From Pyrrhoderma lamaoense (lineage: Eukaryota > Basidiomycota > Agaricomycetes > Hymenochaetales > Hymenochaetaceae): a stretch of 64,000 nt of DNA. Within the stretch, counting starts at the first letter, position 1. Each line of letters begins with the position of its first letter. The stretch spans positions 17,643 to 81,642 of the forward strand of contig NBAZ01000044.1 of NCBI GenBank assembly GCA_002794735.1, read 5' to 3'. The translations under genes and the position numbers were made by a program. This document shows positions 1-17,319 of the stretch, in pieces. The notes beneath the pieces are model-generated. The model made no database searches and was not told the DNA's origin. It saw nothing but the letters and a program-made list of their open reading frames with translations.

Positions 1-739
1 TTCTGTGATTCAAGACCAGAGCCCGGACTGTACGAATGAAAGGGAGCGAGACGGCCTCATAGTACAAGACGAAGACCCTTATCTCAGATACTGTACTGGG
101 ATCTTGGAGGCCCTTCAAGACGTTCGCCTCCATATTATTAAGAGTGTGGTTCGACTTGAGGTTTCTCACGAACTCTATTAGTTCGATAAAAAGGTTTTTT
201 TGTTGGAAGACGACACAGGCGGCCTCAAGAAAGGAGGCATACTGTGTATTCGACACTTCAGGGAAAGGTGTCAAAGACCCGGTATGCATCTTCATATACC
301 AATTGTAGGTATTATGAAGTCCTTTTTTGTCATCCTTATTGTTAAATAGAGCCCCCATTAGGCTGAGGAGCTTAGCGGCCCCCCCGATAGATACGTCCTG
401 AGCCCTAGAAGAGGCTATAGTCTCGGGATCTAGCCCAGCCGTAGCCAATTCTATAACTACGGCGTTATCCTTGTTTGCTAGTGGTACCGGTGAGTCCTCT
501 TTTGTTTTCCAGACCTCCTGCATAGCTAAGTTGCCTCCTTTTACAGCATTTAGATCCTTATGCATACAGCAGCCAACCCAGACAAACAGGGAGTCCCTCC
601 CCCTTTCCTCATCGGTAAGTAGATCCATAGCCTCTTCAGCAAACGAACAGAACAGCCAGTCAGACCATTTTCTAGCAGATTCTTCTTCATCTTCTTCAGA
701 AACCGAGTCAAGACCCCCGCGCTCTCTAAGATAGATAGC
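1..739 (-). pseudogene. DDE-type transposase copy A, second segment (cut by Ty3-1, runs off window)
   Basis: Reading the minus strand from 739 down to 1 gives one open frame that continues the protein encoded at 17319-16021. It aligns residue for residue with copy B (20532-21240). Visible motifs are GCCMHKDLNAVKGG in the middle and NHTLNNMEANVLKGLQ near the end. A Cys-Cys-x-His signature and a late Glu are common in RNase-H-fold DDE transposases, and proteins with this set of motifs are abundant in Agaricomycetes; I am not sure of the superfamily name (KDZ-like is one possibility). The segment begins exactly at the ATAGC duplication of Ty3-1, so the gene is broken by that insertion. At the equivalent of copy B's TAG stop (21209) copy A has TAT (Tyr). 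The 3' end of the gene lies outside the window. Confidence 0.8.
735..739. repeat. Target-site duplication of Ty3-1, left copy
   Basis: ATAGC lies directly before the first base of the left LTR and again at 16021-16025 directly after the right LTR. Five-base duplications are normal for Ty3 integrases. Removing the element and one ATAGC restores the transposase reading frame. Confidence 0.92.
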
Positions 740-794
740 TGTTAGGATTTCCAAACTTTAGGCTTACCAATAACGATTATAAAGCGCTTACATC

Positions 795-1445
795 ATGTCT
801 AATGAAGAAGTCACACAAGGCTCATCAACTAGCCGGGACAGACCCCAAAACATATGCCGAACCTGTTATAGAACAATACAAGAAATGGAAGAGATATGTA
901 ATAATATGGCCATACGAATAACAAAGGCCTTAATCAAGAACCAGAAGGAAGATTGGCGGTATTACAATAATTATGAATGGTTTGATATGCATACAAACAA
1001 CTATCCATACGATACCACCCTGCATAACATAACAAGGGTACAGAACCACCTGTGGTTGGAAGAACCATTCAAAGGCATATACCCTGATCAACCTGAACTA
1101 CAGGTTCGCTCCGAAGCAATGCTAGATGCTAGAAACCATGGAGAACCAATCCTAGTAGCATCCTCAATATGTGTTATACTACACAAGCAAGCTTCAGATG
1201 AAATCAAGGAAGCAATTCGTAAATCTGTAATCAGAGCTACAGACGAAAGCTTTGCACTACAAGGACCAGGCATAATGACTATAGATGAACAGGAGACAAC
1301 TCACTTTGCAATGCGAATGCACACACTGTGGAGAGGAATGATACATGAAACATATAACAAAGCTCCTCGTCCAGGATTCGAGAGAGTAGATTGGATCACT
1401 CTTAACAGAGCTCAACCAGTAACACCTCCAGTAATACCACAGTGA
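795..1445 (+). CDS. ORF carried inside the Ty3-1 left LTR, unknown function
   Basis: The ATG at 795 lies 55 bases into the LTR and opens 216 codons beginning MSNEEVTQGSSTSRDRPQN. I do not recognise the family. A CRTC pair sits near residue 21, the middle is rich in Trp, Tyr and Asn, and the end is Pro-rich. There is no signal peptide or membrane segment. The frame ends in TGA (1443-1445) but stays open for another 56 codons to TAG at 1614-1616, continuing the Pro-rich tail, so the TGA may be a recent mutation of a roughly 272-residue protein. The copy in the right LTR (14607-15257) differs by one residue (Pro to Leu at about residue 97). Because it lies upstream of the LTR's own TATA box, it would need a different promoter, or readthrough from outside. 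Confidence 0.55.
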   Translation: MSNEEVTQGSSTSRDRPQNICRTCYRTIQEMEEICNNMAIRITKALIKNQKEDWRYYNNYEWFDMHTNNYPYDTTLHNITRVQNHLWLEEPFKGIYPDQPELQVRSEAMLDARNHGEPILVASSICVILHKQASDEIKEAIRKSVIRATDESFALQGPGIMTIDEQETTHFAMRMHTLWRGMIHETYNKAPRPGFERVDWITLNRAQPVTPPVIPQ

Positions 1446-1809
1446 GAAAGTCCTCCATTACCAGTCATGCCTCATAGGGAACGCCCTATACTACCACACA
1501 TCAATACTATTCTCCCAAGAGAGGAATGGGACAGAAACAATCCATCAGCCCATGCTAGAACAAGCATTGCGTCAGACCATCCACAGTTTGAATGGCGGAC
1601 TAGCCATTCCTCTTAGCAAGCCCGAGGCTGGGCTAAGAAGATATTCCCATGCTGGGAGTAGACGCGCCGGTCGAATAAATTCTCACGATACGAATACGGT
1701 AATTCACGAGTCAGGTGATTGTAATAATGGACGCGGCAACAGAAATAGTTATAAACAACATAACAAGCTTAGTGCTTTTGGATGAAGGACGAATTGGACA
1801 CTTTAACTA

Positions 1810-1914
1810 GTGCCACAAATTGCTGGAGATATGGATACAGGTGCCATAAACAGTGGTGCCACAATGGTGCCACACTAGGTGCCACATTGGTGCCACACTA
1901 AGTGCCACAAATTA
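1810..1914 (+). repeat. GTGCCAC direct repeats in the Ty3-1 LTR
   Basis: Seven copies of GTGCCA[C/T] lie within 105 bp, several in the larger form GGTGCCACA with alternating flanks. They sit 60-160 bp upstream of the TATA box, where enhancer repeats of an LTR promoter would be expected. The same array is at 15622-15726 in the right LTR. Confidence 0.75.
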
Positions 1915-1973
1915 AATATAATAATAGTATTTCTTGACGATTAAATGGGTAGTTAGTTCACATGTAGTAGATG

Positions 1974-1981
1974 TATATAAG
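1974..1981 (+). promoter_or_regulatory. Ty3-1 LTR TATA box
   Basis: TATATAAG, about 230 bp before the LTR end and directly after the GTGCCAC repeats. The copy in the right LTR is at 15786-15793. Confidence 0.6.
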
Positions 1982-2303
1982 GAGGTCAATTTTGACCAAG
2001 ATCTCCTCATTGAAATCAATCTTGTCACAAACCCAAAGACAGCTAATCTGTCTACATCTGATACATCACTATCATCTGTCAGTATATCTGGCCTACAAGT
2101 CGTTTCTGTTTTGAACACTGTGATATTAAGTACAAGGGCATCTTATATAATTACGCTTAGTCGTATTATCCCCTTGCTTATACAAGCAGATCAATACAGA
2201 TCCTAACATATTGATTTCAATCTTCTTTCTACTACCCCTCTGGAGCAGTAGCCCGATACCAGTCTTGGTTTAGGAAGAATATCATACTCCGGGCACTAGG
2301 TTT

Positions 2304-2930
2304 ATGGAACAAACTGTTTACCTCGCCATAACAATTGTTTCTACCTCACTCCTAGTTAACCACTTGGCGAACAAAGCTATCAAAGCTAAGCTTGACAAAG
2401 CAGAAGGTTCTTTTCATCGTATTAGGGAAACCATCACCGAAATCCTCCTAAGACATACCGAAACATTACGAACTGTTGCAGAGATTGACAGATACTTAGT
2501 CACTCTCACATCAAAGAATAATTTCTTGGAACAGAAACACACAAGAACGGAAAAGAAGACCGAAAGGGCGCATCAAATAATAAGGAATATCCAAGTACAG
2601 CTTTGTGATAGACGAGAACAAGAAAGGAAAATCGATTCCTATATCTCACAGAACTTCCAGAATCAGTCCGAGTTTCTAAAACTATTTAAACAGTTTTTAG
2701 AACTTTGTGTCTACGAAGACAACAGAAAGATCGAAGAATTCGCTCAACATCTAGCCAATCTACCCACAGAAGTAGTTGGAAACATTGGTCAAGAAATACC
2801 ATCTGATCCGATTACTCGCATCTCCAGCCCAGACTCAGGATATCAAGTAGATACCCCAGAAGCTCAGTTCACTACCACAGTAACCACTGAACCAGTTACT
2901 TATTACGACGAGTCTAGTGAAGAAAACTAA
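2304..2930 (+). CDS. Coiled-coil ORF between left LTR and gag
   Basis: 208 codons from ATG 2304, ending three bases before the gag ATG at 2934. The N-terminus has a short hydrophobic stretch (VYLAITIVSTSLLV, residues 5-18) that could anchor or insert in a membrane. Residues of about 28-150 are charged with heptad-like spacing, a likely coiled coil. The tail is Ser/Thr/Pro-rich. I do not recognise it. An ORF in this place is not part of the standard gag-pol layout. It could be an extra structural protein translated before gag, or the first part of a bicistronic gag. The close spacing suggests one transcript. Confidence 0.6.
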   Translation: MEQTVYLAITIVSTSLLVNHLANKAIKAKLDKAEGSFHRIRETITEILLRHTETLRTVAEIDRYLVTLTSKNNFLEQKHTRTEKKTERAHQIIRNIQVQLCDRREQERKIDSYISQNFQNQSEFLKLFKQFLELCVYEDNRKIEEFAQHLANLPTEVVGNIGQEIPSDPITRISSPDSGYQVDTPEAQFTTTVTTEPVTYYDESSEEN

Positions 2931-2933
2931 ACA

Positions 2934-3860
2934 ATGGCTGCTACATCTAAAGTTATTGCCAGGCTTGTTCCATACGATGGAAAGAAGAATGATGACCTTG
3001 CTAACTTCTTCTATCATGCAAGCCTTCGATTTAAAGCAGCAGGATTGGATACAGACGAAAAGAAAGTAGGATTTGTGCTACAGCACTTGCAGAAACCTGC
3101 ATCTTCTTGGGCACAACCTATAGTCGAAAAATGGACTGAAGATAAATTAATACAAGTATCAAATACAGCAAATGGAGTTACAACATGGGATGCAACATCT
3201 GGAGCATGGAAAGATTATAATGAATTCAAGACTTGGCTATGGGATAGATCTGGAAAAGCTGATAGAACTAAAGACGCAGAAGCCAAACTCGAAGCTATTA
3301 AACAAGGAAAGGGTAGTGTACACGACTACATAACCCTATTTGAAGATATAACTCTACAATTACCCTCTCATTACGTTGAACCTCTTCTTAGAAGAGTATT
3401 CATGAAGGGACTTCGAGAAAGTGTTAGAGTAACCTTGGAATCTTATAAAGATTCAAGTACTTGGACACTAAAAGAATGGAAGAAGAATGCGATTGACTTG
3501 GAAACGAACAAGAAGATTAATGCCCTACATTATACTGAATATACCCCTCAGAAGGCTATAAAGGAAATGCCTAAAGGATGGGGCGATCCAATGGATGTGG
3601 ATGCACAACGATATGCATTCAAGAAGAAGAAGGGTTGGATTAACAAAAGACACCAACGCCCGAAATCCCAATTTAAAGGGACTTGCAACAAGTGTGGCAA
3701 AACTGGCCACAAAGCTGCTCAATGCTTCGTGAAGAAGAAGAAACCCTTGGTGACCAAGGAGCAGCAATGGGATGATAACCTCTTTGGAGGTAGTAATGAT
3801 GATATGGATGAGGATGAGAGTGATAATGAGGATTTTCAACACCCCACTCTAGCAAACTAG
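2934..3860 (+). CDS. gag: Ty3-1 Gag
   Basis: 308 codons. Residues 1-210 form the capsid-like region typical of fungal Ty3 Gag (the segment AEAKLEAIKQGKGSVHDYI followed by FEDITLQLP matches the usual helix before the retrotrans_gag core). A zinc knuckle CNKCGKTGHKAAQC (CX2CX4HX4C) lies near residue 250, after a Lys-rich stretch, and would bind RNA during packaging. The tail is acidic. The pol frame is open from 3830, overlapping the last 30 bases of gag in the -1 frame, so pol is probably made by -1 frameshifting, but I see no classical slippery heptamer. Confidence 0.9.
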   Translation: MAATSKVIARLVPYDGKKNDDLANFFYHASLRFKAAGLDTDEKKVGFVLQHLQKPASSWAQPIVEKWTEDKLIQVSNTANGVTTWDATSGAWKDYNEFKTWLWDRSGKADRTKDAEAKLEAIKQGKGSVHDYITLFEDITLQLPSHYVEPLLRRVFMKGLRESVRVTLESYKDSSTWTLKEWKKNAIDLETNKKINALHYTEYTPQKAIKEMPKGWGDPMDVDAQRYAFKKKKGWINKRHQRPKSQFKGTCNKCGKTGHKAAQCFVKKKKPLVTKEQQWDDNLFGGSNDDMDEDESDNEDFQHPTLAN

Positions 3861-4606
3861 CTGCGCCTAGAAGTGGGAAGACTCGGTTAATAAATGATAA
3901 TTTATTTATGTATAGCTTGCCTGTTGTATCTGAGCAACCAAGAATAAAGGTTAAAGGATATCAAGGGCAGCTCGAAGTCGCAGCAGAGGCATTGATCGAT
4001 TCAGGATCAGTGTGCTCAACGATACATCCAGCTCTAGTCGAAGAGTTCGGAATAAACACTCAAAAACTCCCTCATCAACGAATCATCCAAAATGCTGATG
4101 GAACTGTTAATACCAGTGGTCCAATCAGAAGAGAAGTTAAAATGGCTATAAGCACTGGAATAGCTCCAAGAAAGCTACATACCTTTGCAGTAGTCAATAC
4201 AGGGCGAAATGAAATGATTTTAGGATTAGATTTCCTAAAACGGTATAACCCAATAATCGATTGGGTGGCCAAGACTATCAAAAGTCGCAAATGGCCTCGA
4301 TTTAAAGCCACAAGGCTTATCATAGCCCAACAGGAATATCAACCCATGGAACGGCTGAAGAAACAGCGAAAGAAAAAGAAAAAGAAAAAGTTGCAAGAAG
4401 AAGTTGGATATTATGAACTGATCCAACAAACCGGAAACAGGTACGCACCCTTAGCTAAAACACCTGAACAGGCAAAAGCTAGCCAAACAGGTAAAAGACC
4501 CCGAGGGCAAAGTGATTTAAGGAAATCACTCGAGTCCAGAAAGAGGACGAGACCAAGTCCTAAAAATGGGGATGTCAGTAATAAAAGCGAAAATCAATCT
4601 AAATGA
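3830..4606 (+). CDS. pol: Ty3-1 Pol: aspartic protease region
   Basis: The frame opens at 3830 inside gag; the first ATG is 3908 (232 codons from there). The protease active site is in EALIDSGSVCST (Asp-Ser-Gly, about residue 35 from the ATG), followed by the flap and an ILGLDFL segment typical of retropepsins of this family. The end is a Lys/Arg-rich linker. The frame closes at 4606, where the next frame has already opened at 4566, so protease and reverse transcriptase are now separated by a +1 change. Confidence 0.85.
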   Translation, partial: GFSTPHSSKLAAPRSGKTRLINDNLFMYSLPVVSEQPRIKVKGYQGQLEVAAEALIDSGSVCSTIHPALVEEFGINTQKLPHQRIIQNADGTVNTSGPIRREVKMAISTGIAPRKLHTFAVVNTGRNEMILGLDFLKRYNPIIDWVAKTIKSRKWPRFKATRLIIAQQEYQPMERLKKQRKKKKKKKLQEEVGYYELIQQTGNRYAPLAKTPEQAKASQTGKRPRGQSDLRKSLESRKRTRPSPKNGDVSNKSENQSK

Positions 4607-5840
4607 GGTTGATGCCACTTTACGAGATGTTAAGTTTCCTGATATAGAACAGGAACTTGAAATGGAATCACTGTCCAGACAGTTTTCACGAATGGTTACT
4701 AGATCACCTAGTGAAAAGGACTATGATGCTGATGCGCAGACATCAGGTCTGGAATCTAAACAAGATTCAGATACTGACATGGCTAGACATGATTTAGATC
4801 ATGATCTAGATTTTGAAGCCTTACAGATTAATCGCAATTGGATGCCTGATCAGAGTCGTTATAAAGAATACAAGAAGAGCCAACAGAAGCTCAGGAATCA
4901 GGCAATAAAGGCTGGAAGGGTTGCACAACGATATGCACAAGAAAAAGCTGCGTGCTTGGGGAGACTAGTAGATGGAATGGCACCAAGGAAAACCTTTGAG
5001 GAACTAGTCCCAAAACGACTCTGGAAATTCAAGGATAGATTTAGCGAAGAAGCTAGTAAAAGAATTCCAAAACATAGCAAGTATGATATGGAAATTAACC
5101 TTGAAGACGAATATGAAGAAGATCACAACAAGCTGCCAAAACCACAAAATCGATACAAGATTAGTCGAGACCATGCTAATGTTTTAGCGAATTGGGTCAA
5201 AGAAAATTTGGATAAAGGATGGATTAGAAAATCATTCTCTCGAGTAGCAGCAAGAGCCTTTGTGATTGGAAAGAAAGATGGAGGACATCGAATTGTATTG
5301 GACTATAGAGACATAAACAACTGCACGAAGCCAGATGTGTTTTCTATACCAATAATGAGCCAACTCACTGAAGATGTTGGCAAGGCTAAACACTTTACCA
5401 CCTTAGATATGCGTTCTGGTTATAACAATATCAGAATCAAGGAAGGAGACGAATGGAAAGCTGCATTTAAAACACCACAGGGTGTTTATGAACCCTTGGT
5501 TATGCAGTTCGGAACCATGAATTCACCTGCAGTATTCCAACGAGCTATGAATGATCTTTTTGAAGATCTAATCGGAAAAGGAGTCCTAGTCTATTTAGAT
5601 GATGTTATCATCTATACAAAGACTGAAGAAGAACATTGGCCTTTGGTAGAAGAAGTTTTACAACGAATGCGAAAAGCAGACTTCTATCTAAAGCCAGAGA
5701 AATGTTATTTCGATCAACCAAGAGTAGATTACCTTGGTTTTGTTATAACTAGAGAAGGACTTACAGTGGACCCGAGAAAATCAAAGGAATACAAGAATGG
5801 CCAGCACCAAAGACAAGAAGACAAGTCAAAAGCTTTTTAG
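4566..5840 (+). pseudogene. pol: Ty3-1 Pol: reverse transcriptase (frameshifted at end)
   Basis: 424 codons. After about 130 residues of linker comes the RT domain: KKDGGHRIVLDYRDIN, then TTLDMRSGYNNIRI with the first catalytic Asp, then VLVYLDDVIIY with the catalytic YLDD pair. The frame is lost near 5780 at VDPRK: the run GAGAAAATC has one A too few compared with the expected frame, and the downstream thumb and RNase H continue in another frame. Apart from this base the domain looks functional. Confidence 0.88.
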
Positions 5841-7048
5841 GGTTTACAAACTTCTACAGCAAGTTTGTTAAAGGATATGCAGGCATAGTCGAGCCTATAT
5901 CCAGTCTTCTAAAGAAGAAACTTCGATTTAAATGGGATCAAGGACGTCAGCAAGCATTTGAAGCTATAAAGAAAGCTTTCACATGTACTCCAGTCTTACA
6001 ACATCCTGACGATACCAAGCCATATATTATCGAAACTGATGCTTCCAAATATGCTACAGGAGCAGTAGTTCTTCAGAAAGGACCTGATAATGTCGAAAAA
6101 CCAGTAGCCTTTCTATCAAAGAAACTCACTCCTACAGAAGCAAGATGGCCAGTCTATGATAGGGAAATGTTGGCTATACTTCGAGCTCTTAAACAATGGA
6201 AACATCACCTTAATGGGAAAACCATAATCCGTACTGATCACCATAATCTCAAGTACTTTATGGAGGCCAATGAGTTGAATGATAGACAACTCCGATGGTA
6301 CGAAATCTTGCAACCATACAAGATTCAAATCGAATACAAGCCAGGTAAAAGTAACACTATACCTGATGCTTTATCCAGACGACCAGATTATGTCCCAGAA
6401 GGCGAAGAAAAGGAGCCCAAGAAAGTGATAGGAACTTTACTTCCTAAAAGTTTACTTATGGGCAAAGATATAACCAAAGAACTCGAAACAAAGGCTCAAC
6501 CCATAATGGTTAAAACTATGAATGCAATAGTTAACCAGGATCCTCTATTGAAAGAAATCGAAGATGCTTACCAGGATTCTAACTGGGAAGAAGAAAAGAC
6601 ACTGGCAGGAAACAAACATGCATGGACACAACGAAGTGATTACCATACTAATGGTAAAATTCACTATATAGGATCTCAAATTTGGATTCCACCAAATAAA
6701 GAACTTCGAAACAAGATCCTAAAACGAGTCCATGATGAATCTACAGCAGGACATCCAGGAATACATCGTACCTTAGTTAAACTACATCAAGAGTTTAAAT
6801 GGTGGAAAGATAAACAAGACGTTGAAGCATATGTCTCAACATGCGAAGTATGTCAAAGAATAAAGACACGAAGAGGGAAGATACAACCTCCTCTCCAACC
6901 AATGGAGATACCACAACAGCCATGGGAAATCCTTAGTTGTGATTTCATAATGCCTTTACCACAGACTCAAAGTGGAAAAGATGCGATTTTTGTTATACAG
7001 GATTACTTAACAAAGTGGTTCATTTTGTTGCTTGCAATAGCAACATAA
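5841..7048 (+). pseudogene. pol: Ty3-1 Pol: RT thumb, RNase H, integrase zinc domain
   Basis: The frame runs from about 5780 to 7048; the first ATG is only at 6167, but the protein clearly begins earlier (SFLGFTNFYSKFVKGYA at about 5830-5880). RNase H shows IIETDASKYATGAV with its catalytic Asp, and RTDHHNLKYF. The integrase zinc domain follows (HPGIHRTLVKLH, then CEVCQRIK; HHCC pattern), then the start of the catalytic core with ILSCDFIMPLP (first Asp). The frame is lost again near 7030, where one G is missing from AAGTGGTTCATT. Confidence 0.86.
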
Positions 7049-7494
7049 CTTCGGAACAAACCGCAAGTGTATTCTTAAAAACTATATTCCATCACTATGG
7101 AGCACCAAGAAAAATAGTCTCGGATAGAGGAACTCAGTTTACTAGTGCATATTTTCGGAGTATACTCCAAAAACTTGGAATAACACCGGGATTAAGCACA
7201 GCTTATCATCCTCAAATGGATGGCCAAACTGAGAGAACTAATAAAGTTCTAGAGGATTACTTAAAGGGATATACCAATACCCTTCAGGACGATTGGGATA
7301 CACATCTTAGCAATGCTATATTTGCTTATAATACGAGCTATCATTCGGCTATACAAATGGAGCCTTATAAAGCCTTATATGGTTTTATACCGAAGTTAAC
7401 TTGGTTAAACGAACCTGGGAACGTCCCAGCAGCGGATCATTTTGCTAACAGAGCAAAACAAGCGCAAATAGAAGCACAAAAGCATTACAAATAG
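7015..7494 (+). pseudogene. pol: Ty3-1 Pol: integrase catalytic core
   Basis: Continues the integrase core in a new frame: VSDRGTQFTSAYF carries the second Asp and YHPQMDGQTERTNK the catalytic Glu, normally spaced. The frame closes at 7494 (AAATAG). Downstream to 7560 the coding signal continues with another shift and an in-frame TAA, so the link to the chromodomain is also broken. Confidence 0.86.
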
Positions 7495-7563
7495 CACAAG
7501 AAGCTATGAAAGCATGGAAATAAAACCCGTGGAGATAAAGCCAACTTCGAAATCGGAGATAGG

Positions 7564-8061
7564 GTGTTGCTTAACAGCAAGAACCTTAATCTAAACATAC
7601 CATCCCGGAAACTTGGTTATCAGCATTTAAGACCCTTCACCATCATAGAAAAGATTGGCGAAGTTTCTTACAAATTGGAATTGCCACGAACCATGAGAAT
7701 ACACCCAGTATTTCATGAGTCCTTATTAAAACCATACAATAAGGATGATAACCCAAATAGAGAACAATTTGCTCATCCAGATCCGGAAGTTATAGATGGA
7801 GAACCAGAATATGAAGTAGAAGAAATAATAGATTTTGATACTGAGGAACATCCTAATCAGTACAAAGTCCGATGGAAGGGATATCAAGAAAATGATGATT
7901 CCTGGGAACCTATTTCAAATCTGGAAAATTCACCGGAGTTATTATGGCGATATCATACAGATAATAGCGATAAATCCATACCTGCTAAGGTTAGAAAATG
8001 GATACGAAATTGGAAAGTACTCCAAGGAGCTGCTATTATCTTGGGAGGAATGAATTATTAA
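7564..8061 (+). CDS. pol: Ty3-1 Pol: integrase C-terminus with chromodomain
   Basis: 165 codons. The first part is the GPF-like integrase tail (LGYQHLRPFTIIEKIGEVSYKLELP, in part), then HPVFHESLLKPY. Residues of about 80-140 are a chromodomain (YEVEEIIDF, YKVRWKGY, DSWEPISNLENSPELL), the module that directs chromoviruses to chosen chromatin. The hairpin array begins immediately after the stop. Confidence 0.88.
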   Translation: MLLNSKNLNLNIPSRKLGYQHLRPFTIIEKIGEVSYKLELPRTMRIHPVFHESLLKPYNKDDNPNREQFAHPDPEVIDGEPEYEVEEIIDFDTEEHPNQYKVRWKGYQENDDSWEPISNLENSPELLWRYHTDNSDKSIPAKVRKWIRNWKVLQGAAIILGGMNY

Positions 8062-8500
8062 ATTGATTCATGTTACGTCCGGAAAGACGTTAAAATACCA
8101 GTTATGGAATATTATTTATCTCATATACGTCCGGAATGACGTTAAACTAGCACACATGAGTCTTAATTGATTCATGTAACGTCCGAAAAGACGTTAAACT
8201 AAGCCATATGGATCATGTATTGATTCATATATGTCCGAAAAGACATAAAACTAACTCCATGGGATAATACTTATTCCATAAACATCTGAAAAGATGTAAA
8301 ACTAACCTAATAGGCCTAAGATGCTTATTACGTCCGAGAAGACTTAAAACTAATGGAATAAACCAATTAGGTTTATTATATCCGAAAAGATATCAAACTA
8401 GTAATATAACCTTATAGGGTTATAGTCCGAAATGACTAGAAACTAACTTGCCTCCTAAACTTAAAGGAGATGATTATAAGTCCGAAATGACTAGAATAAA
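8062..8500 (+). repeat. Array of nine regularly spaced RNA hairpins after pol
   Basis: Nine stem-loops of one design recur every 45-56 bases: 8075-8090, 8127-8142, 8177-8196, 8230-8247, 8282-8297, 8330-8345, 8378-8393, 8423-8438, 8479-8492. Each has a stem of about five pairs, a six-base loop close to CGAAAA, and then AAACTA. The stems change on both sides together: ACGTC/GACGT, ATGTC/GACAT, ACATC/GATGT, ATATC/GATAT, TAGTC/GACTA. Between them lie second hairpins, unrelated in sequence to each other: 8155-8176, 8206-8230, 8259-8279, 8308-8330, 8357-8377, 8405-8424, 8452-8469, several with G-T pairs that are allowed as G-U in RNA on the plus strand. There is no open frame. I know no named element like this. 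It may be a packaging, localisation or translation signal of the element's RNA. Confidence 0.8.
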
Positions 8501-8642
8501 CTATGTGGCATAATTTGCAGTTGCCACAAGGAAGTGGATTAAAGGAGTAAAACTGGAACTTATAGCATATAAAACTCCATCAAAGATAATCGAAGCAGAA
8601 GCATCAATCAAACCCTTGAACTCTATTCACAACTCTAACACG

Positions 8643-9995
8643 ATGTCTCGCGATAAAATCGAACATGTTGCCCTGGGAGAATTCACTATAGTGGAAGAAG
8701 CACCTAAAGAACCTATTATCTTGCCTAATACTTCGGCGGAGTTACCTCTAGGAGAACTTTTTGCTGGTGAAAACATGTACCCACATGTTAAACTATCAAA
8801 ATACGATCAATTTGTTACCATGGTTCTTCCTGGCCCAGACAGTCTCAATAAGGTACCATCTCCATCAATTACAAAGAAAGAATTGATGCCGCCTTTAGAC
8901 ATGTGAGAAATACACTTACTGTGTCGGAAACTAATATACCTTGGTACAAGTTTATTGAATACCAACCGCGGATCAAACTGGACTTGGCAAGACATGTATC
9001 CCCTTTAGTTCTGGATCGGATAATCAAAGGTCTTCGACATGTGCTACAGGCTTACAAACTAAGCTATGCACACGAATGGCATGGGAAAATTTCTCTAACT
9101 TGCAACTAGAAGCATTAATCTATTTTGGAAATCACTTGATACATCCAAATCGATTTGAGCTTAATGGTAGTTGTGCAACCATCAATCCATTTGATGAGTT
9201 GATCGCAAAAGGCATGCACTTATGCGATAACTATGAAGAGTTTTGTGAACTTTATGTAGAGTTTACAGAAAGGGCTAAATGCGAAATCATAGCACGAAGA
9301 GCAGCAGCAATCTATGCTCCATTTCCTAGTCCTCAGGAAAGAAGCAAGCTAGTACTCTATACACAGATAGTGGATAATATGAAGAATATTCCGGAGTTTG
9401 TAGGATTGGAACAGGCACTCAACCGGAGCTTCATACAAGTCTATAATGATGCTTACCGAAAGGAGTATTGAAAGATGCTAAACAGGAAGGTTCTAGCAAG
9501 GACCCTATTAACTTAGGCGCCCAGGAACCTATAGTATTGCCACTTGGATTGACGCAATTCTGCGATCAGTGGCTGGACAAGGTTACAACCCCATATGATA
9601 ACTTGCCAGAAGAAGTTCTCAGCAACCAAGATGCCGAAACTGCGGCACAGAATCCACAGAATGCGCCAGGACCTTGGGGACCACAAGGATTCTTAGCGAA
9701 GGAAGCAGCAAAAGCTGTTGCTAATGGACTTAACTTTAAGCCCTTAAACGAATGGTCTAAACTGGAAAGGGATGTGTTTGCCACAACGGGTTGGCTTAAT
9801 GTAAAACATCCTAATGCGGAAGATAAACAATACATAGAACCCCCTACTCGTACTGGGGATCTGAAGCTAATGATATCTAGAGAAGAGACCCTAAAAGAAT
9901 TATACCCTCACCTCCGTTTGGTTTCTAACTTATTCTCACCTCTTAACATAAAAGCAACATCTCGGAATTTACTATTTAAAGGAGCCCATCAATGA
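8643..9995 (+). pseudogene. Accessory ORF of Ty3-1 after integrase, broken by frameshifts
   Basis: Four overlapping open segments (8643-8906, 8903-9109, 9076-9471, 9468-9995) join end to end through single-base shifts and read as one protein of about 450 residues starting at ATG 8643 (MSRDKIEHVALGEFTIVEE). I do not recognise it. There is no zinc knuckle, signal peptide or obvious membrane segment, so it is not a normal envelope gene. The middle segment (FNPF-type hydrophobic stretches, then FPSPQERSKLVLYTQIV) looks like a folded, mainly helical domain. It lies where some Ty3 elements carry a third ORF. Confidence 0.6.
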
Positions 9996-11083
9996 CTCAA
10001 GAATCTATCAACTCGCTCTATTCACTGGTCTTTGCCATCTATATCACTCAACTACTACTACTACTACTACTACTCATACTTCTACATCATGTCGTTCCTC
10101 AACACCTTTAACATCATCTCCTCTTACATTGCCGCTTACCTTCTCCACTTACTCCATCCTCGCTCAACTACGTAAAATACGAACAATGGGTCCAGAGGTT
10201 ATTTGCTCAAAAGCATACTGACTCTGTCACTGTGGACATGATAATCATGGAACGACTGTTGGATTGAGGAATGTAGCTGTAGAGAAAGAGGAAAGAACTG
10301 GTCGGTGTAACGAATGGTTCTGCGATGTATGTGATCACTGGGTAGGAGCTACTTGGATGACTATGAAGTCAAGTGCTGGGTGACAGAAGAGACCGAGTCA
10401 ACTAGTGAGCTCATAGAAGAAGTCCATGACCCTCGAATTGCTGACTTACTGGACTTGATAGCCAGCATAGAAGAGGGTTTGCAGATGACGATGATGAGTA
10501 TGATGGTGATGTAGAGCCTCCAAGACCCTTTACTCCATTCATTAATTATATTAGAGTCGGAAAGGTTGATGATGATGATGATGATGATGGCAATCTAACG
10601 CCTGATTCAGTTCTTGTTAGAGAGGAGTTTGATGATGACTCTTTCTTTAATTTACCCTCTTAAATTGTTTATTCTTTCTTTCTTTCTTTCTTTCTTCTCT
10701 CTCTTTAATTCTTTTTGGACTGTCTCGCTTTTCTCTTCTTTTTCTAGCTTCATGTAAAAAGGATTGACATGTCTCTTTATTTATTATAAAAGTTTTCTTC
10801 TCCAACGTTGGGTCCGACACTATGCAGGACTAATCATGTATTTATAGGGTTGACTTGCCCTCGATTTTACATGTATAGAGGCTTATTTATTCTTGAAGGG
10901 CCAGTAGTCGACCATTAACTTAAATGGACGCTTACTGGGGTTTCAAAGATAACGGAAAGCCAAAGCAGTATATCTTCGGATATGTACTAGCTGTGACTAA
11001 CTTAGATTGCTACAGCTGTGGATGTGGAAACATCACACGCTTGAGCAATTAAGAAAGTCGAGATATTAAGTTGTTGTACCTCC
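9996..11083 (+). other. Ty3-1 3' region: decayed coding stretch and simple repeats
   Basis: No intact gene. A (CTA)n run lies at 10050-10074, a GAT run at 10568-10588 and CTTT repeats at about 10672-10700. From about 10350 to 10663 the sequence still reads like protein: YLDDYEVKCWVTEETESTSE, then about 30 further residues, then after a shift at 10484 a 59-codon acidic tail ending FFNLPS and TAA at 10661-10663. This is probably the remains of another element-encoded protein, or the far end of the accessory ORF. Confidence 0.5.
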
Positions 11084-11200
11084 TGTTACGGGATTGGAGG
11101 TTTGAAGATTCGCGGATCATCGGCTAGGTCGGAGATCAAACACAAACCAAATATAGGAAGCTGCAAATCCTGCCTATTACGAACAATAGCAAACTCAGCT

Positions 11201-12046
11201 ATGTCACACAGGGAAGTCCTCTCTCAAGATGGAGAAAGGCCTGCGGTGTTTGAACGACTACATGCGCAGCCAGCAGAGCCATTGCTGGATCAAGTCCGTG
11301 GCTGGATAGAATCACGGCAAAGGTTGGAAACTAGGGCCTTACCAAATCCTACAGGAGATGTAGGTGTTCGTATAGCAGTACATGAAGCAGAACGAACTAG
11401 CGAATCTCAAGTACACAGTCAGGTGGAACGAGTCCCTTGGTACCAGACCAGAGTAGGGTGTATTAATTGCAAGAAGACTTATTCGTTACAATCGGACCTT
11501 TACAGGATCACTTGGACAACTCTCTTCGAAATGGGAGTGGATGCTACCGAGTTTACAGTACAGGTACAGAAGTACTGGACAGACGATTCTATCCGAGAAT
11601 TCCCTCACTGGGAACAAGATGTATGGACTTTTCACTACATTACACTCTTGAAGTTAAAAAGGGAGGAAAAGGTCTGGGGTCAAATTAGGATTGTGGTCTT
11701 AACGAATATGGAGCATACAGGACACCAGCACGAAGAACAGTGCAGCAGTAGTGTGGTTCACTATCAAGTGATACCAAAGGATCCCCCAGAATGGGGAATA
11801 CTCTTACTCCGTCAGCTACCAAGGAAAGTCTACGATCACCTCAAGTTAATCGATGTGCCTGGATACATACGGTGGGGATATCACCAATACTTCAATGCCG
11901 AACAACGTGTGGCCTGCTGGGTCGGCACGGACCATTCAGGGTCTTTGTGGAGTGAAGGCACAACACGCTTCAGCCACAATTGGGGTTATCTAGGGTTCAG
12001 GACAGTGGACCCTAACTCAGGGACAGGAGATTGGGAATCTCTCTAG
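11201..12046 (+). CDS. ORF inside LTR-2 copy 1, unknown function
   Basis: From ATG 11201 the frame runs 281 residues (MSHREVLSQDGERP); upstream it stays open to a TTG at 11102. I do not recognise the protein. It has GCINCKKTY near residue 90, many Trp and His residues, and no signal peptide. It lies in U3, upstream of the LTR's TATA box, like the unrelated ORF in the Ty3-1 LTR. The copy at 17437-18282 is equally long and also intact, although the two differ at about 17 residues, which is some evidence that the frame was under selection while the LTRs diverged. Confidence 0.5.
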   Translation: MSHREVLSQDGERPAVFERLHAQPAEPLLDQVRGWIESRQRLETRALPNPTGDVGVRIAVHEAERTSESQVHSQVERVPWYQTRVGCINCKKTYSLQSDLYRITWTTLFEMGVDATEFTVQVQKYWTDDSIREFPHWEQDVWTFHYITLLKLKREEKVWGQIRIVVLTNMEHTGHQHEEQCSSSVVHYQVIPKDPPEWGILLLRQLPRKVYDHLKLIDVPGYIRWGYHQYFNAEQRVACWVGTDHSGSLWSEGTTRFSHNWGYLGFRTVDPNSGTGDWESL

Positions 12047-12237
12047 ATCAGATCTAAGGGTCTCAGGGTCTCAGGGTCTCAGGGAGTAATGCGATCGTAT
12101 GGACTGCGGAGCAGGGACGATAAGGGTTCAGACATGTGTGGGACACACAGGGTCTTCAGGGACTTGTGGAGCAAGTGCCCTTAAAGTTATGATTAGGATA
12201 AAGGAATACCCATAGCATAATGGGTGTTGATGAAGGC

Positions 12238-12245
12238 TATAAAAG
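12238..12245 (+). promoter_or_regulatory. LTR-2 TATA box (copy 1)
   Basis: TATAAAAG, conserved at 18474-18481 in copy 2 and placed after the ORF, so it would drive the element's full transcript rather than the ORF. Confidence 0.55.
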
Positions 12246-12849
12246 CAGGACTTTTGGACATCGTAGAGTAGATTGTTCAGACTCACTTATAGCCATCATC
12301 TGGTAATAAGTTTACTTCAAGCCGTAAAACGGTAACAAGTTACAACTACACTTAAAGTACAATACCTGCGCTCAGTCAAGATTGTCATTAGCTGGCAAAG
12401 GTGTTGCTTTAAGGGTATCTGTATTGTGGTAGAACATCTAGCTTTCTCTAACATTGTTACTTGTTCTCTATCACTGTACAGTGAGGAGACTACTTCTATA
12501 CTCTCCAAGAAGGACCACGTTATCGTACTACGAGTTATTGCATCGGCATCGTTTAGGTTGAATCAATACCTTGGTCGACACCTCGCGTGATTACCTCTTT
12601 GTCACAATCTACTTGTAGTGTCCTCGGCACTTGGCACGACGACTTCGAGACCCCCTACCTTGAAGAAGCACCAACTGCTCGTTAGCTTTAACCGGACTAG
12701 GTGTCTATTTAGTCTGATCAACTACTCAGCACACTGCTAGCCCACCCCTGTTGGCGAAAGGATTAGAGTTGCCTTATCTGGGTTATCGAACCTCTATTAC
12801 TAAGGATTGTAGATCACACTGATCCCTTAGTTTTAAGGAAACCGTAACA

Positions 12850-13392
12850 CCTCCTGTACCATCTTTTATATAAGATTGGGCAAGAAGTCGACAAATTAAT
12901 GCAAACCTAAGTCTAATCCCTAAGGGATGTAATGACAAAGGTTAAACTAGACTTCGTTAATCTGAGCATTGGGTCCAGTGACAAACTGGGAACTAAAGCT
13001 TAGATAATTGGGAAGGTCGAAACTATTGTAGTGTCTGGCTCTTCTTACAATGTTAAGATAGAGAAGAAATGCAATAGAATGACGTATATTTATGTCTAAT
13101 CCTTAAGGGATGTAATGACAATGGTTATATGTCATAAAGTGATCAATATTAGATGCACTTTTGGGACGTATAATAGAACTATCATAATCTTTTTGTCCAG
13201 CTTAGAAATAAGTGGCATAAGATATGATAAAGTTGGACGAAGCTAATCTGAGCTTACAAGTCTAACTTATAGAAGTGTATAGTCATACTTATATGAAGTC
13301 TACACAATGGGGGAGAGAGGTTGAGAGTAATTAACTCGAAAATTCTCAAAAACCCACTTGGACATTTACAGATGTTGAAGCAAAGGCTTTAT
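12850..13392 (+). other. Ty3-1 3' region between two solo LTRs, no gene
   Basis: AT-rich, no open frame. A short segment recurs within it: a 20-base stretch close to CTAATCCCTAAGGGATGTAA at 12912-12931 and again, with CTTAAGG, at about 13098. The core is a small palindrome (CCCTAAGGG). Confidence 0.4.
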
Positions 13393-14210
13393 TGTTATGA
13401 AACCAAGTCTATTTTCGCTTTTTTGCTTACTAAGCAGCTTACATAAGCTGACTAAGCACTTACATAAGCATCTTACATAAGTGGATTATCTAATCATCTT
13501 ACATAAGCTGCTTACCTAATCATTATTACCTAAGCATCTTACCTAATCAGCTTAGTCAGCATGCTTACCTAATCACTTACATAATATGCTTACATAAGTC
13601 GCTTACTAAGCACTGACTCAGCACATGACTCAGCTGTCTTATTAAGCATCTCATCTTATCTTATCTCTCTCTTATCTCCACTGCTTACTCATCTGTTCTA
13701 GAACATTCTGAGACCTTCCAGAACACTCTAGAACATTCCACCATGTTCTACCACCTTCCATCATTCTCCATGGCCACCTTTCCTTATTTGGTTTAGTCCC
13801 CTTTGTAATTAGCCTATTTTATGTTTCAGCTAGCACAGCCTAGCTTAGCCTGTTTGTTTAGCCTATTTCTTATGTTTCATCTAACACAGCCTAGCACAGC
13901 TTAGTTAGCCTAATAGTTTAGCCATAGACCCTGCCGGGTTTTTTCATTATTCCCACACTGCCTCCCACATGTATAAATACCCCCCTCCTGTCAGTAGCTA
14001 GTCCCCCAGTCTTGATCTTGTCTTCCCTCCTAGACTAGTACCTTCTAATACATCCTCTTGTCCCCTCCTCACTGTTCTTCCCCTCCTCTTGCCCCTCCTC
14101 TCCTCTGTCTCTGTCTATATCAGTGTATGCTGGTTGTGCCTTGTCTTCAGACCCTGCTGACTAAGCATTCTGCTGACTAATACTGGTACTAGAACTAGTC
14201 ATTGCTGACA
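13393..14210 (+). mobile_element. Solo LTR of the Ty3-2 family inside Ty3-1
   Basis: 818 bp, starting TGTTATGAAACC and ending TTGCTGACA, flanked by TTTAT (13388-13392 and 14211-14215). It matches the Ty3-2 LTRs (21427-22237, 27486-28353) read from their minus strand. It holds the same array of short CTTACATAAG-like palindromes (about 13425-13640) and a T-rich promoter region ending near 13990. Confidence 0.92.
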
Positions 14211-14551
14211 TTTATAATACCATGGGAGTGGACAGCGGTTACTTAAACTCGTCTACTTAATGGGTATTTATGCGAAACAAGCTAATGTTATCTGGAAAGA
14301 AGGAAATTATATCTTTATTCTTCACCCATAACATTCTCTATTTGGATCTAACGAGACGAAGCAGTTCCCACAATTGTTATGGCTAAATTAAACTATTTGT
14401 TAAACCAAGACATACTTTTGTTGTATGTTGGACAGCCTTATAGGTTGTTAAACATATTTAACAAAATAATTGTTAAAAGTTTGATAAATTAGGCCTTATT
14501 TTCGATAAAAACTTTGTTTTCACCGGAAAATGAAGTCTTGGGAGGGCAGTT
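14211..14551 (+). other. End of Ty3-1 internal region with polypurine tract
   Basis: No gene. The purine-rich stretch GGGAGGGCAG (14540-14549) directly before the right LTR is the expected primer for plus-strand DNA synthesis. Confidence 0.65.
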
Positions 14552-16020
14552 TGTTAGGATTTCCAAACTTTAGGCTTACCAATAACGATTATAAAGCGCT
14601 TACATCATGTCTAATGAAGAAGTCACACAAGGCTCATCAACTAGCCGGGACAGACCCCAAAACATATGCCGAACCTGTTATAGAACAATACAAGAAATGG
14701 AAGAGATATGTAATAATATGGCCATACGAATAACAAAGGCCTTAATCAAGAACCAGAAGGAAGATTGGCGGTATTACAATAATTATGAATGGTTTGATAT
14801 GCATACAAACAACTATCCATACGATACCACCCTGCATAACATAACAAGGGTACAGAACCACCTGTGGTTGGAAGAACCATTCAAAGGCATATACCTTGAT
14901 CAACCTGAACTACAGGTTCGCTCCGAAGCAATGCTAGATGCTAGAAACCATGGAGAACCAATCCTAGTAGCATCCTCAATATGTGTTATACTACACAAGC
15001 AAGCTTCAGATGAAATCAAGGAAGCAATTCGTAAATCTGTAATCAGAGCTACAGACGAAAGCTTTGCACTACAAGGACCAGGCATAATGACTATAGATGA
15101 ACAGGAGACAACTCACTTTGCAATGCGAATGCACACACTGTGGAGAGGAATGATACATGAAACATATAACAAAGCTCCTCGTCCAGGATTCGAGAGAGTA
15201 GATTGGATCACTCTTAACAGAGCTCAACCAGTAACACCTCCAGTAATACCACAGTGAGAAAGTCCTCCATTACCAGTCATGCCTCATAGGGAACGCCCTA
15301 TACTACCACACATCAATACTATTCTCCCAAGAGAGGAATGGGACAGAAACAATCCATCAGCCCATGCTAGAACAAGCATTGCGTCAGACCATCCACAGTT
15401 TGAATGGCGGACTAGCCATTCCTCTTAGCAAGCCCGAGGCTGGGCTAAGAAGATATTCCCATGCTGGGAGTAGACGCGCCGGTCGAATAAATTCTCACGA
15501 TACGAATACGGTAATTCACGAGTCAGGTGATTGTAATAATGGACGCGGCAACAGAAATAGTTATAAACAACATAACAAGCTTAGTGCTTTTGGATGAAGG
15601 ACGAATTGGACACTTTAACTAGTGCCACAAATTGCTGGAGATATGGATACAGGTGCCATAAACAGTGGTGCCACAATGGTGCCACACTAGGTGCCACATT
15701 GGTGCCACACTAAGTGCCACAAATTAAATATAATAATAGTATTTCTTGACGATTAAATGGGTAGTTAGTTCACATGTAGTAGATGTATATAAGGAGGTCA
15801 ATTTTGACCAAGATCTCCTCATTGAAATCAATCTTGTCACAAACCCAAAGACAGCTAATCTGTCTACATCTGATACATCACTATCATCTGTCAGTATATC
15901 TGGCCTACAAGTCGTTTCTGTTTTGAACACTGTGATATTAAGTACAAGGGCATCTTATATAATTACGCTTAGTCGTATTATCCCCTTGCTTATACAAGCA
16001 GATCAATACAGATCCTAACA
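14552..16020 (+). repeat. Ty3-1 right (3') LTR
   Basis: 1469 bp, same ends as the left LTR and nearly identical. Followed by ATAGC (16021-16025), the duplicate of 735-739. GTGCCAC repeats at 15622-15726, TATA box at 15786-15793. Confidence 0.93.
14607..15257 (+). CDS. ORF inside Ty3-1 right LTR (second copy)
   Basis: Same 216-codon frame as 795-1445, with Leu instead of Pro at about residue 97, and the same TGA followed by 56 further open codons. Since both LTRs of one insertion come from a single template, agreement between them says little about selection. Confidence 0.5.
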   Translation: MSNEEVTQGSSTSRDRPQNICRTCYRTIQEMEEICNNMAIRITKALIKNQKEDWRYYNNYEWFDMHTNNYPYDTTLHNITRVQNHLWLEEPFKGIYLDQPELQVRSEAMLDARNHGEPILVASSICVILHKQASDEIKEAIRKSVIRATDESFALQGPGIMTIDEQETTHFAMRMHTLWRGMIHETYNKAPRPGFERVDWITLNRAQPVTPPVIPQ

Positions 16021-17319
16021 ATAGCCATGCGCTCGGCTCGTAGTTCTGCTTGTTCCTCAGGGGTCTTGGAGTAAAAAAAACAAGCCCCATAGGCCCGGGG
16101 TAAGTTCTCTTCTTTCCATTTCTGTAGTATTCCATATTTTGACTTTTGATCTTCAGCATGGTCACTATGAAACCCCAAGAACTTGATAGGAACAGAAAAC
16201 ACATTAAAACACTCCCCAAGACCAAGATTTGAGGACACCGGGCTTGATTTGAAGGTATCTAGAACCTTTTCAAGTGTTTCTCTTATTTCTTGAGCTTGAG
16301 TTGCTGACTTATGATTCGCAGTTAGATTTACCCCGAGAAGACAAACCCTAGGCTTGATCTCGGAGGAGTCGTCTTGAAGGTATGAACTTGGGGCACTCAA
16401 ATTTAAATGTAAAGATTCAAAATTTTTATTTTTATTACTAGTGCCGTCACCACCAATTGTAAAACCTTTAAAGTAAGTTTTAAAGTTAAAATTCTATCTT
16501 TATTTAGGTTGTATATTCTCTATCTTACTGGCAGCCTGGTTTATCTCATAACCAGCTTGTACATCTGCCGCCACCCCCTCCTCTAATATCACCCTCTTAA
16601 CCGTCCGAGAACTAACTTCTTTTAGTTCTCGGACACCTCTAGGCCTCGATACCCACTGCGATACATAGCCTAGGACGCAGTGAAGGATTCGGCCGGCCTT
16701 TTGAGACGGACAGCCAAGTTGAACCACTATCCGTATAAGGGATCAGAACCCCGGGGTATAGACTCCTTTATCAGATAGGTTGAACACCATATTTGCTTTC
16801 TTTAAGACTCTTGAATACTGATTTTTCTTCATCCTAGCTCTCTTGTAGCGGCAATCAAGTCTACGGCCCCTAGCACGGGCCTCTTCGAGTTTGGACTTCA
16901 AGATCTCATTTCTTAGAGATAAACCAGAGAGCTTCGCTCGGGAAGCTTCTAACTCTTTCTCAAGCTTCAAGTAAGACTCTGAGTGCAAGGACAGGGACCT
17001 TTTTGAGAGGTCTAGATGCTTCTGAGTCTGAGTCGATAGCTGGAGGGTCGTCTGGGACCATGCTAGTGTGTTCGAGCAGCTTGCTCGTGTTTCGGTGAGT
17101 TCCCTATCTTTTGATTCTATTTCTTTTTCTAATCTAGCCAAATCTTCTTTTAAAGTATTATTGATGGCTTCAAGGTCTTTGGACCTTTTTTTGTACCAGA
17201 AAAGAGAAGCCCTTTTACTTTCTTTAACCTGAGTCAAGTCCAGAATACGAGCACGAGCGTTTTGAAGGTCTTGCTCGTATGTTTCTCCTAGCTCAGCCAA
17301 CTCTTCTTCAAGCTCTTCA
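16021..17319 (-). pseudogene. DDE-type transposase copy A, first segment (5' cut by LTR-2, 3' cut by Ty3-1)
   Basis: Minus strand, exons 17319-16529 and 16465-16021 with a 63-nt intron (GTAAGA...AAAG). The first 180 residues are a long coiled coil (heptad-rich, Lys/Glu/Leu). Then comes the region VQLGCPSQKAGRILHCV, an SSRTVKRVILEEGVAAD block, and across the intron the motif FTIGGDGTSNKN, whose Asp should be the first catalytic acid of an RNase-H fold. A TGA at 16745-16743 interrupts the frame after KGVYTPGF; the same stop is present in copy B, in the same place. The protein resumes at 739-1 beyond Ty3-1. The N-terminus is missing because the solo LTR at 17320 replaces it. Confidence 0.82.

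Follow-up and report, generated by a model that had tools for sequence, protein, structure and literature searches.

A tandem array of hairpins with a shared loop type and tail behind the pol gene of a Ty3/gypsy-type retrotransposon in Pyrrhoderma lamaoense

Behind the pol gene of a retrotransposon in Pyrrhoderma lamaoense lies a row of regularly spaced inverted repeats, which raises the question of whether an RNA structure is kept there and what it might do for the element. The locus is part of a window of 64,000 nucleotides (positions 17,643 to 81,642 of the forward strand of contig NBAZ01000044.1, which is contig C44 in the 30.65 Mb genome searched), and all coordinates below are those of this window unless another contig is named. 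A sequence-only reading had described the row as nine covarying RNA hairpins directly after pol.

The host element is a Ty3/gypsy LTR retrotransposon with a chromodomain integrase. Its LTRs are 1469 nt long, start with TGTTAGG and end with CCTAACA, and the element is flanked by the 5-base target duplication ATAGC at 735-739 and 16021-16025. The Pfam families Retrotrans_gag, gag-asp_proteas, RVT_1, RT_RNaseH, Integrase_H2C2, rve, SH3_Tf2-1 and Chromo follow in this order, all above cut-off. A zf-CCHC zinc knuckle in gag is borderline at 20.5 bits, just below its cut-off of 20.8. The pol frame shifts repeatedly and is interrupted by an in-frame stop at 7492-7494; with these breaks in its protein genes, it is doubtful that the window copy is itself active. 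The main parts of the element are:

740 to 16020, the host LTR retrotransposon, defined by paired LTRs and the target duplication
740 to 2208, plus strand, 5' LTR, 99.9% identical to 14552-16020
2934 to 3860, plus strand, gag open reading frame (ORF), with Retrotrans_gag and Ty3_capsid above the Pfam cut-off
7564 to 8061, plus strand, C-terminal end of pol, with SH3_Tf2-1 and a chromodomain; the stop codon TAA is at 8059-8061
8039 to 8048, plus strand, polypurine-type decamer TCTTGGGAGG, just 5' of the pol stop and the array
8643 to 9995, plus strand, accessory ORF region 3' of the array (8643-8906, 9076-9471 and 9468-9995)
12850 to 13392, plus strand, second structured RNA block, with the motif GTC..GAC..TTAAACTA at 12911
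14552 to 16020, plus strand, 3' LTR, 99.9% identical to the 5' LTR

The three accessory ORFs sit in different frames. None of the pieces tested matches Pfam at E 0.1, and one has a single relative in a protein search. The stretches 11086-12849 and 13393-14211 are later insertions, since both are repeats present elsewhere in the window and a copy of the element on contig C50 crosses both insertion points without them. The only other plus-strand occurrence of TCTTGGGAGG in the element is the 3' polypurine tract at 14536-14545. The decamer at 8039-8048 is therefore a possible central polypurine tract; alternatively, it may be the trace of an older element end behind which the array and the accessory region were added later. 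Other ORFs were also seen. Each LTR contains one of 216 amino acids (795-1445 and 14607-15257) that has no Pfam family above cut-off and only two relatives in a protein search, 98% and 89% identical, and one of 208 amino acids (2304-2930), with Pfam matches below cut-off only, lies directly 5' of gag. Elsewhere in the window, 29817-63887 carries several related genes in a row with 81-87% DNA likeness, of NACHT-WD40 type as assigned from their translations rather than by a family search.

The region between pol and the 3' LTR contains nine tandem units at 8075-8493, against a threshold of at least three. Each has a hairpin, termed A, and successive A hairpins start 52, 52, 52, 51, 48, 48, 45 and 55 bases apart, in agreement with the regular spacing claimed earlier. 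All are on the plus strand and are given as 5' arm, loop and 3' arm:

8075 to 8090, A1, ACGTC-CGGAAA-GACGT
8127 to 8142, A2, ACGTC-CGGAAT-GACGT
8179 to 8194, A3, ACGTC-CGAAAA-GACGT; 7 bp including flanks
8231 to 8246, A4, ATGTC-CGAAAA-GACAT
8282 to 8297, A5, ACATC-TGAAAA-GATGT; a GAAA tetraloop closed by U-A
8330 to 8345, A6, ACGTC-CGAGAA-GACTT; one C-U mismatch
8378 to 8393, A7, ATATC-CGAAAA-GATAT
8423 to 8438, A8, TAGTC-CGAAAT-GACTA; competes with B7
8478 to 8493, A9, AAGTC-CGAAAT-GACTA; inner 4 bp kept

The five compensated stems listed in the sequence-only reading are all present. Seven of the nine hairpins have a perfect 5-bp stem; A6 has the mismatch and A9 keeps 4 bp. A loop close to CGAAAA had been described for every unit. 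All nine 6-nt loops fit the pattern Y-GNRA-W, and the inside varies between GAAA, GGAA and GAGA. That this variation stays within GNRA is suggestive, although it comprises three units and A-to-G differences only. The shared AAACTA tail is exact and in register in seven of nine units, but it reads AAAATA in unit 1 and is shifted 3 bases further on in unit 9. In the 27-column alignment, the two top pairs (U-A and C-G), the first and last GNRA bases and three A of the tail are invariant, while the lower stem positions vary between units and include no invariant column. No open frame crosses the array, with stops in all three frames, and tandem duplication is evident from periods of 52 and 104 bases. 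AAACTA occurs 20 times in the native parts of the element, six of them within the array right behind a hairpin in a strict scan. Outside the array it follows a hairpin in one strong case (8790) and two weaker ones (6513 and 8928). A perfect 7-bp hairpin, AACATGT-ACCC-ACATGTT, was noted at 8772-8795, directly 5' of AAACTA and within the first accessory ORF.

Each of the nine gaps is able to form a second hairpin of 5-10 bp, termed B, as had been described, with one mismatch in B1. A tenth, B0, precedes the first unit. All are on the plus strand:

8050 to 8071, B0, 8 bp with one U-G; spans the pol stop codon
8104 to 8124, B1, 8 positions with one mismatch and one G-U
8154 to 8177, B2, 9 bp with one G-U
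8206 to 8230, B3, 10 bp with one G-U
8259 to 8279, B4, 9 bp with one G-U
8308 to 8330, B5, 8 bp with one G-U; last base overlaps A6
8357 to 8377, B6, 8 bp
8405 to 8424, B7, 8 bp with one U-G; last two bases overlap A8
8452 to 8469, B8, 5 bp
8504 to 8528, B9, 7 bp

The array thus extends from about 8050 to about 8528, starting slightly before 8062. It adjoins the chromodomain end of pol, and B0 lies over the stop codon. The ten B stems contain five G(5')-U(3') and two U-G wobbles, whose minus-strand equivalents are A-C mismatches; wobbles that pair only in plus-strand RNA had been reported and are borne out.

The plus strand of the 474-nt array folds at -120.9 kcal/mol (z -7.67), and none of 100 shuffles is as good. 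The minus strand reaches z -3.87 and the array folded as single-stranded DNA z -5.91. When the element was scanned in 95 windows of 240 nt, with 30 shuffles each (mean z -1.75, sd 1.84), the lowest was 8100-8339 at z -8.95 and the runner-up was 12900-13139 at -7.19. Hairpins of at least 4 bp with a YGNRAW loop number eight in the array, compared with a mean of 0.03 and a maximum of 2 in 5000 shuffles, for a loop pattern that was chosen after inspection of the data. Two more lie on the plus strand elsewhere in the window.

The covariation score of the A stem is 0.417 compared with 0.170 in shuffles, none of 500 shuffles reaches it, and slid partner registers give at most 0.083. Pairing is found in 87% of cells, and changes on both sides occur in four of the six pairs counted. 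Two simpler counts separate the array from shuffles less sharply: 169 of 500 shuffles also reach six further pair types, and 34 of 500 have as many pairs changed on both sides. Three of the stems (ATGTC/GACAT, ACATC/GATGT and ATATC/GATAT) differ from ACGTC/GACGT only by C-to-T or G-to-A changes at CpG. Since CpG decay alters either arm independently, the 3' arms were permuted among the units, and 24 of 100,000 permutations pair as well, a figure that is not a strict probability because the units are tandem duplicates and not independent. The matched A pairs could therefore arise partly by chance through CpG decay, with the permutation test putting this at about 2 in 10,000.

For the B stems, none of 100,000 permutations of the arms as chosen is as good, a result with some circularity, since pairing had guided the choice of arms. 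When each gap was cut at its midpoint after a linker of 8, 9 or 10 and the best stem joining the two halves was scored, the counts were 3, 4 and 3 of 100,000. Crude cuts of the whole gap at 45, 50, 55 and 60% gave 9353, 3313, 401 and 18 of 50,000; the weak or absent signal at 45 and 50% results from the cut landing inside the 5' arm. The best B stems sum to 153 with plus-strand wobbles and 126 with minus-strand wobbles. Taken with the fold energy, the strand asymmetry and the matched-arm tests on the A stems, these data support the earlier claim of a maintained RNA structure, here in the plus strand, with the caution that three of the variants are explainable by CpG changes.

The regular row of hairpins that had been described is only partly recovered by folding. 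In the free fold of 8040-8535, six of nine A stems are complete (A1-A5 and A7), A9 has four of five pairs and A6 three of five, and A8, which overlaps B7, is absent with a highest pair probability of 0.53. B0, B2, B3, B5, B6, B7 and B9 are present, their highest pair probabilities being at least 0.9, the B1 and B4 regions pair together over 130 bases rather than locally, and B8 gives way, forming if the stretch starts at 8062. When pairs are limited to 70 bases, all ten B hairpins form (B1 with seven of eight pairs) and A1 and A2 are lost. Given the long-range B1-B4 pairing, the weakness of A6 and A8 and the loss of A1 and A2, the neat alternating row is a common theme of the predicted folds and not a single predicted structure.

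A second copy of the array was found on contig C15 (16558-17242, minus strand), and these two are the only copies found in the genome, where the LTR has 34 matches including the two of the window element. The C15 copy is 91% identical in protein over the pol end and 92% identical in DNA over the best aligned piece of 6775-8060. It is decayed, with 66 G>A and C>T changes compared with 23 in reverse, and CG has been lost 13 times and never gained. Four units of its array precede an insertion of other sequence, and the interrupted stretch seems by eye to hold an extra unit. All four retain the Y-GNRA-W loop and AAACTA, and they score 22.3-34.7 bits with an A-hairpin model built on the window units only. 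Internal mismatches (1, 2 and 2) are present in three of the four A stems, and the remaining stem retains 4 bp. One unit has lost the top pair, which does not vary among the window units, and another has lost the next pair down. Decay of this copy has broken its A stems, and the matched A variants of the window copy are therefore not what decay alone gives. The B stems do not discriminate in this way, with all three fully complementary in the decayed copy. In its free fold the first two B regions also pair with each other, and the B0 region pairs in a different register.

Further searches returned few relatives. Across 41 loci, the A-hairpin model matched only the four C15 units, listed twice each since two of the loci overlap, and one stretch at locus L022 (14.3 bits, E 1.3), and it had no match in four further loci or L021. 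Within the window, it matched its nine training units and nine places at no more than 13.4 bits. A degenerate pattern has nine exact matches in the whole genome, seven on C44 and two on C15; with one mismatch it has 17, three of them on these contigs, and a backward control pattern has 13. A protein search gave 34 proteins, the best of which is a 98% identical pol end on a contig of 1354 bases. A viral contig collection scanned with pol-end, integrase and RT pieces and one 23-base pattern yielded no relatives. In Rfam, the window has no match at gathering scores and four weak matches (E 2.3-3.3) in 7900-8700. Readings of the array as a ribozyme, an H/ACA snoRNA or a CRISPR-like repeat were rejected as lacking Rfam support, and the hairpins are also too short for H/ACA.

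An excess of structure over shuffles is also seen in the native stretch 12850-13392 (z -6.96 plus, -3.55 minus). Its C50 counterpart (L044:1292-1870) has z -6.05 and -5.75, a weak strand preference, and differs from it mostly by single changes, with a few indels. The motif at 12911, GTC-TAATCCCTAAGGGATGTAAT-GAC-AAAGG-TTAAACTA, resembles a larger version of an A unit (GTC..GAC..TAAACTA), and its first part has a 31-nt relative 183 nt downstream. Post-pol regions were surveyed at 30 of 62 pol-end matches, using 450 nt after the pol stop and 40 shuffles each. The window element has z -7.22 and the C15 copy, whose stretch is about half insertion, -1.02; of the 28 other loci, 22 lie between 1.04 and -2.33. 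The remaining six (L033, L034, L035, L037, L038 and L039) are at -3.49 to -6.91. By eye they belong to one Ty3 family with repeated CTTACATAAGC palindromes just after pol, and the A/B alternation is absent from these repeats. The CTTACATAAGC repeat type was also seen in the window at 13425-13598, inside the later insertion 13393-14211.

Several known systems are comparable in part. The Drosophila roX RNAs have several tandem stem-loops acting together on a long RNA, but they are noncoding, do not belong to a retroelement, and differ from this array in organism, loop and protein. Engineered MS2/PP7 arrays repeat one loop on varied stems for multivalent protein docking; they are man-made, whereas the present array occurs in nature and has a second set of hairpins between its units. 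The location itself is already known. According to passages of a study of plant Retand Ty3/gypsy elements, tandem family-specific repeats and additional ORFs likewise lie between pol and the 3' LTR, with tandem repeats there in about half of recently active elements (PMC11963269). The ORFs after the array are sense, whereas the Retand ORFs are described as mainly antisense, and the main text of that study does not use the words hairpin or secondary structure, whereas here the stems change together around a fixed loop type (PMC11963269). Covarying hairpins at this location are probably the new part. The Element for Nuclear Expression (ENE) of the Evade LTR retrotransposon is described as a structured RNA located in the 3' UTR, with higher RNA stability and more new insertions as its effects (PMC12501189). 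It is a single element whose triple helix includes the poly(A) tail, whereas this locus has an array with no Rfam match. Among the matches listed in a search of open-licence papers, covering titles and the starts of abstracts, no such hairpin array in an LTR element appeared.

The reading with about an even chance of being correct is that the array works in cis as a multivalent docking platform for a protein, on the plus-strand genomic RNA of this long Ty3/gypsy-type element. Each unit of about 50 nt would present one reading head, made up of the two top pairs, the Y-GNRA-W loop and a single-stranded AAACUA tail. The B hairpin would act as a spacer between heads, its sequence being free provided that pairing holds, and with many heads in a row binding could be strong and cooperative. 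A protein that reads the hairpin top and the tail would be expected to leave such a pattern, in which loop, top pairs and tail are conserved while the stems vary and the spacing is nearly equal. RNA signals of retroelements are frequently linked to packaging, and the first candidate partner would therefore be Gag or its nucleocapsid, which may mark the full-length RNA for its own particle. A second candidate use is nuclear export or RNA protection by an accessory or host protein. That a protein reads the loop and tail, and that this protein is Gag, are both things we infer. The plus-strand structure excess, the co-changing stems of both hairpin sets, the loop and tail kept also in C15, the lack of an open frame across the array, the position directly after the chromodomain end of pol, the borderline zinc knuckle and the further block of excess structure with a related motif near the 3' end are consistent with a docking platform. 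Points against it are the finding of only two array copies, a fold that is not nine equal units, the three A-stem variants that CpG decay could make, the non-independence of the duplicated units, and the top pairs lost in C15. The array (8050-8528) also does not lie near an end of the RNA of the element (740-16020), as a packaging signal would be expected to. Passages of an account of Ty1, Ty3 and retroviral packaging describe signals that are likewise cis-acting RNA and are thought to be recognised by Gag, located within the first 580 nt in Ty1 and delimited at both ends in Ty3, and contain no array of equal hairpins (PMC4974528). According to the same passages, localisation and packaging of yeast Ty3 RNA depended on UTR or POL sequences, and nt 429-4979 were dispensable in cis when proteins were supplied in trans (PMC4974528). 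An internal packaging array would therefore depart from the Ty3 model.

The alternatives differ in which molecule is read and by what. An element for nuclear export, retention or stability, read by a host or accessory protein and likened to the use of Rev or NXF1 as export factors by retroviruses, is unlikely as a separate explanation; it is a version of the docking platform with another partner, and its probability falls largely inside that of the platform. The accessory ORFs directly 3' of the array and the structured block beyond them favour it, as does the report, in passages of a study of the LTR retrotransposon Cer1, that genomic RNA export needs the accessory protein CERV (PMC10309623). 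The accessory pieces themselves, with no Pfam match and a single protein-search relative for one of them, speak against it. Control of termination, readthrough or internal initiation of the accessory ORF by the array has a low probability. The pol stop codon at 8059-8061 lies within B0, whose formation is predicted with a highest pair probability of 0.99, and the array fills most of the gap between pol and the accessory region, ending about 110 nt before the ATG at 8643. However, known compact initiation elements do not resemble a series of near-equal units sharing a fixed loop, all frames are stopped inside the array, and the B0 region does not keep its register in the C15 copy.

It is very unlikely that the array acts as DNA, with repeated palindromic sites for a DNA-binding protein in the manner of an insulator or enhancer. 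Tandem sites with a 10-base conserved core could serve such a protein, single-stranded DNA and the minus strand beat shuffles too, and the CTTACATAAGC palindromes of the other Ty3 family fold well at six of 28 loci. Against this, the stems vary while keeping their complementarity, for which a fixed DNA site would have no use, and the wobbles favour the plus RNA strand. The absence of any function, with palindromic units multiplied by replication slippage and compensations due to chance or CpG decay, is also quite unlikely. Tandem duplication is evident, CpG transitions account for the single changes in three A variants, only two copies were found and the predicted fold is non-uniform. This explanation is opposed by the permutation tests on both stem sets and by the internal A-stem mismatches in three of four decayed C15 units compared with one of nine in the window copy, a counterpoint that is weakened by the three C15 B stems that are still fully paired.

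A broader form of the docking-platform reading would make the array a new retroelement RNA module: a GNRA-type loop and AAACUA tail presented nine times on freely drifting stems, drifting spacer hairpins, a dedicated RNA-binding protein of the element or host, and a second related block toward the 3' end. This is possible but doubtful. With such a compact and repeated reading head, the protein partner could be found directly by pull-down, and the stem variants already present in nature would serve as a ready-made mutation series. The finding bears on how LTR retrotransposons mark their RNA for particles or export, a poorly defined matter, given that the Gag-binding sites in Ty1 and Ty3 RNA are described in part of one account as "not precisely defined" (PMC4974528). 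It also suggests that RNA structure under selection can take the form of tandem repeats after pol, a class of repeats considered in plants as an origin of satellites.
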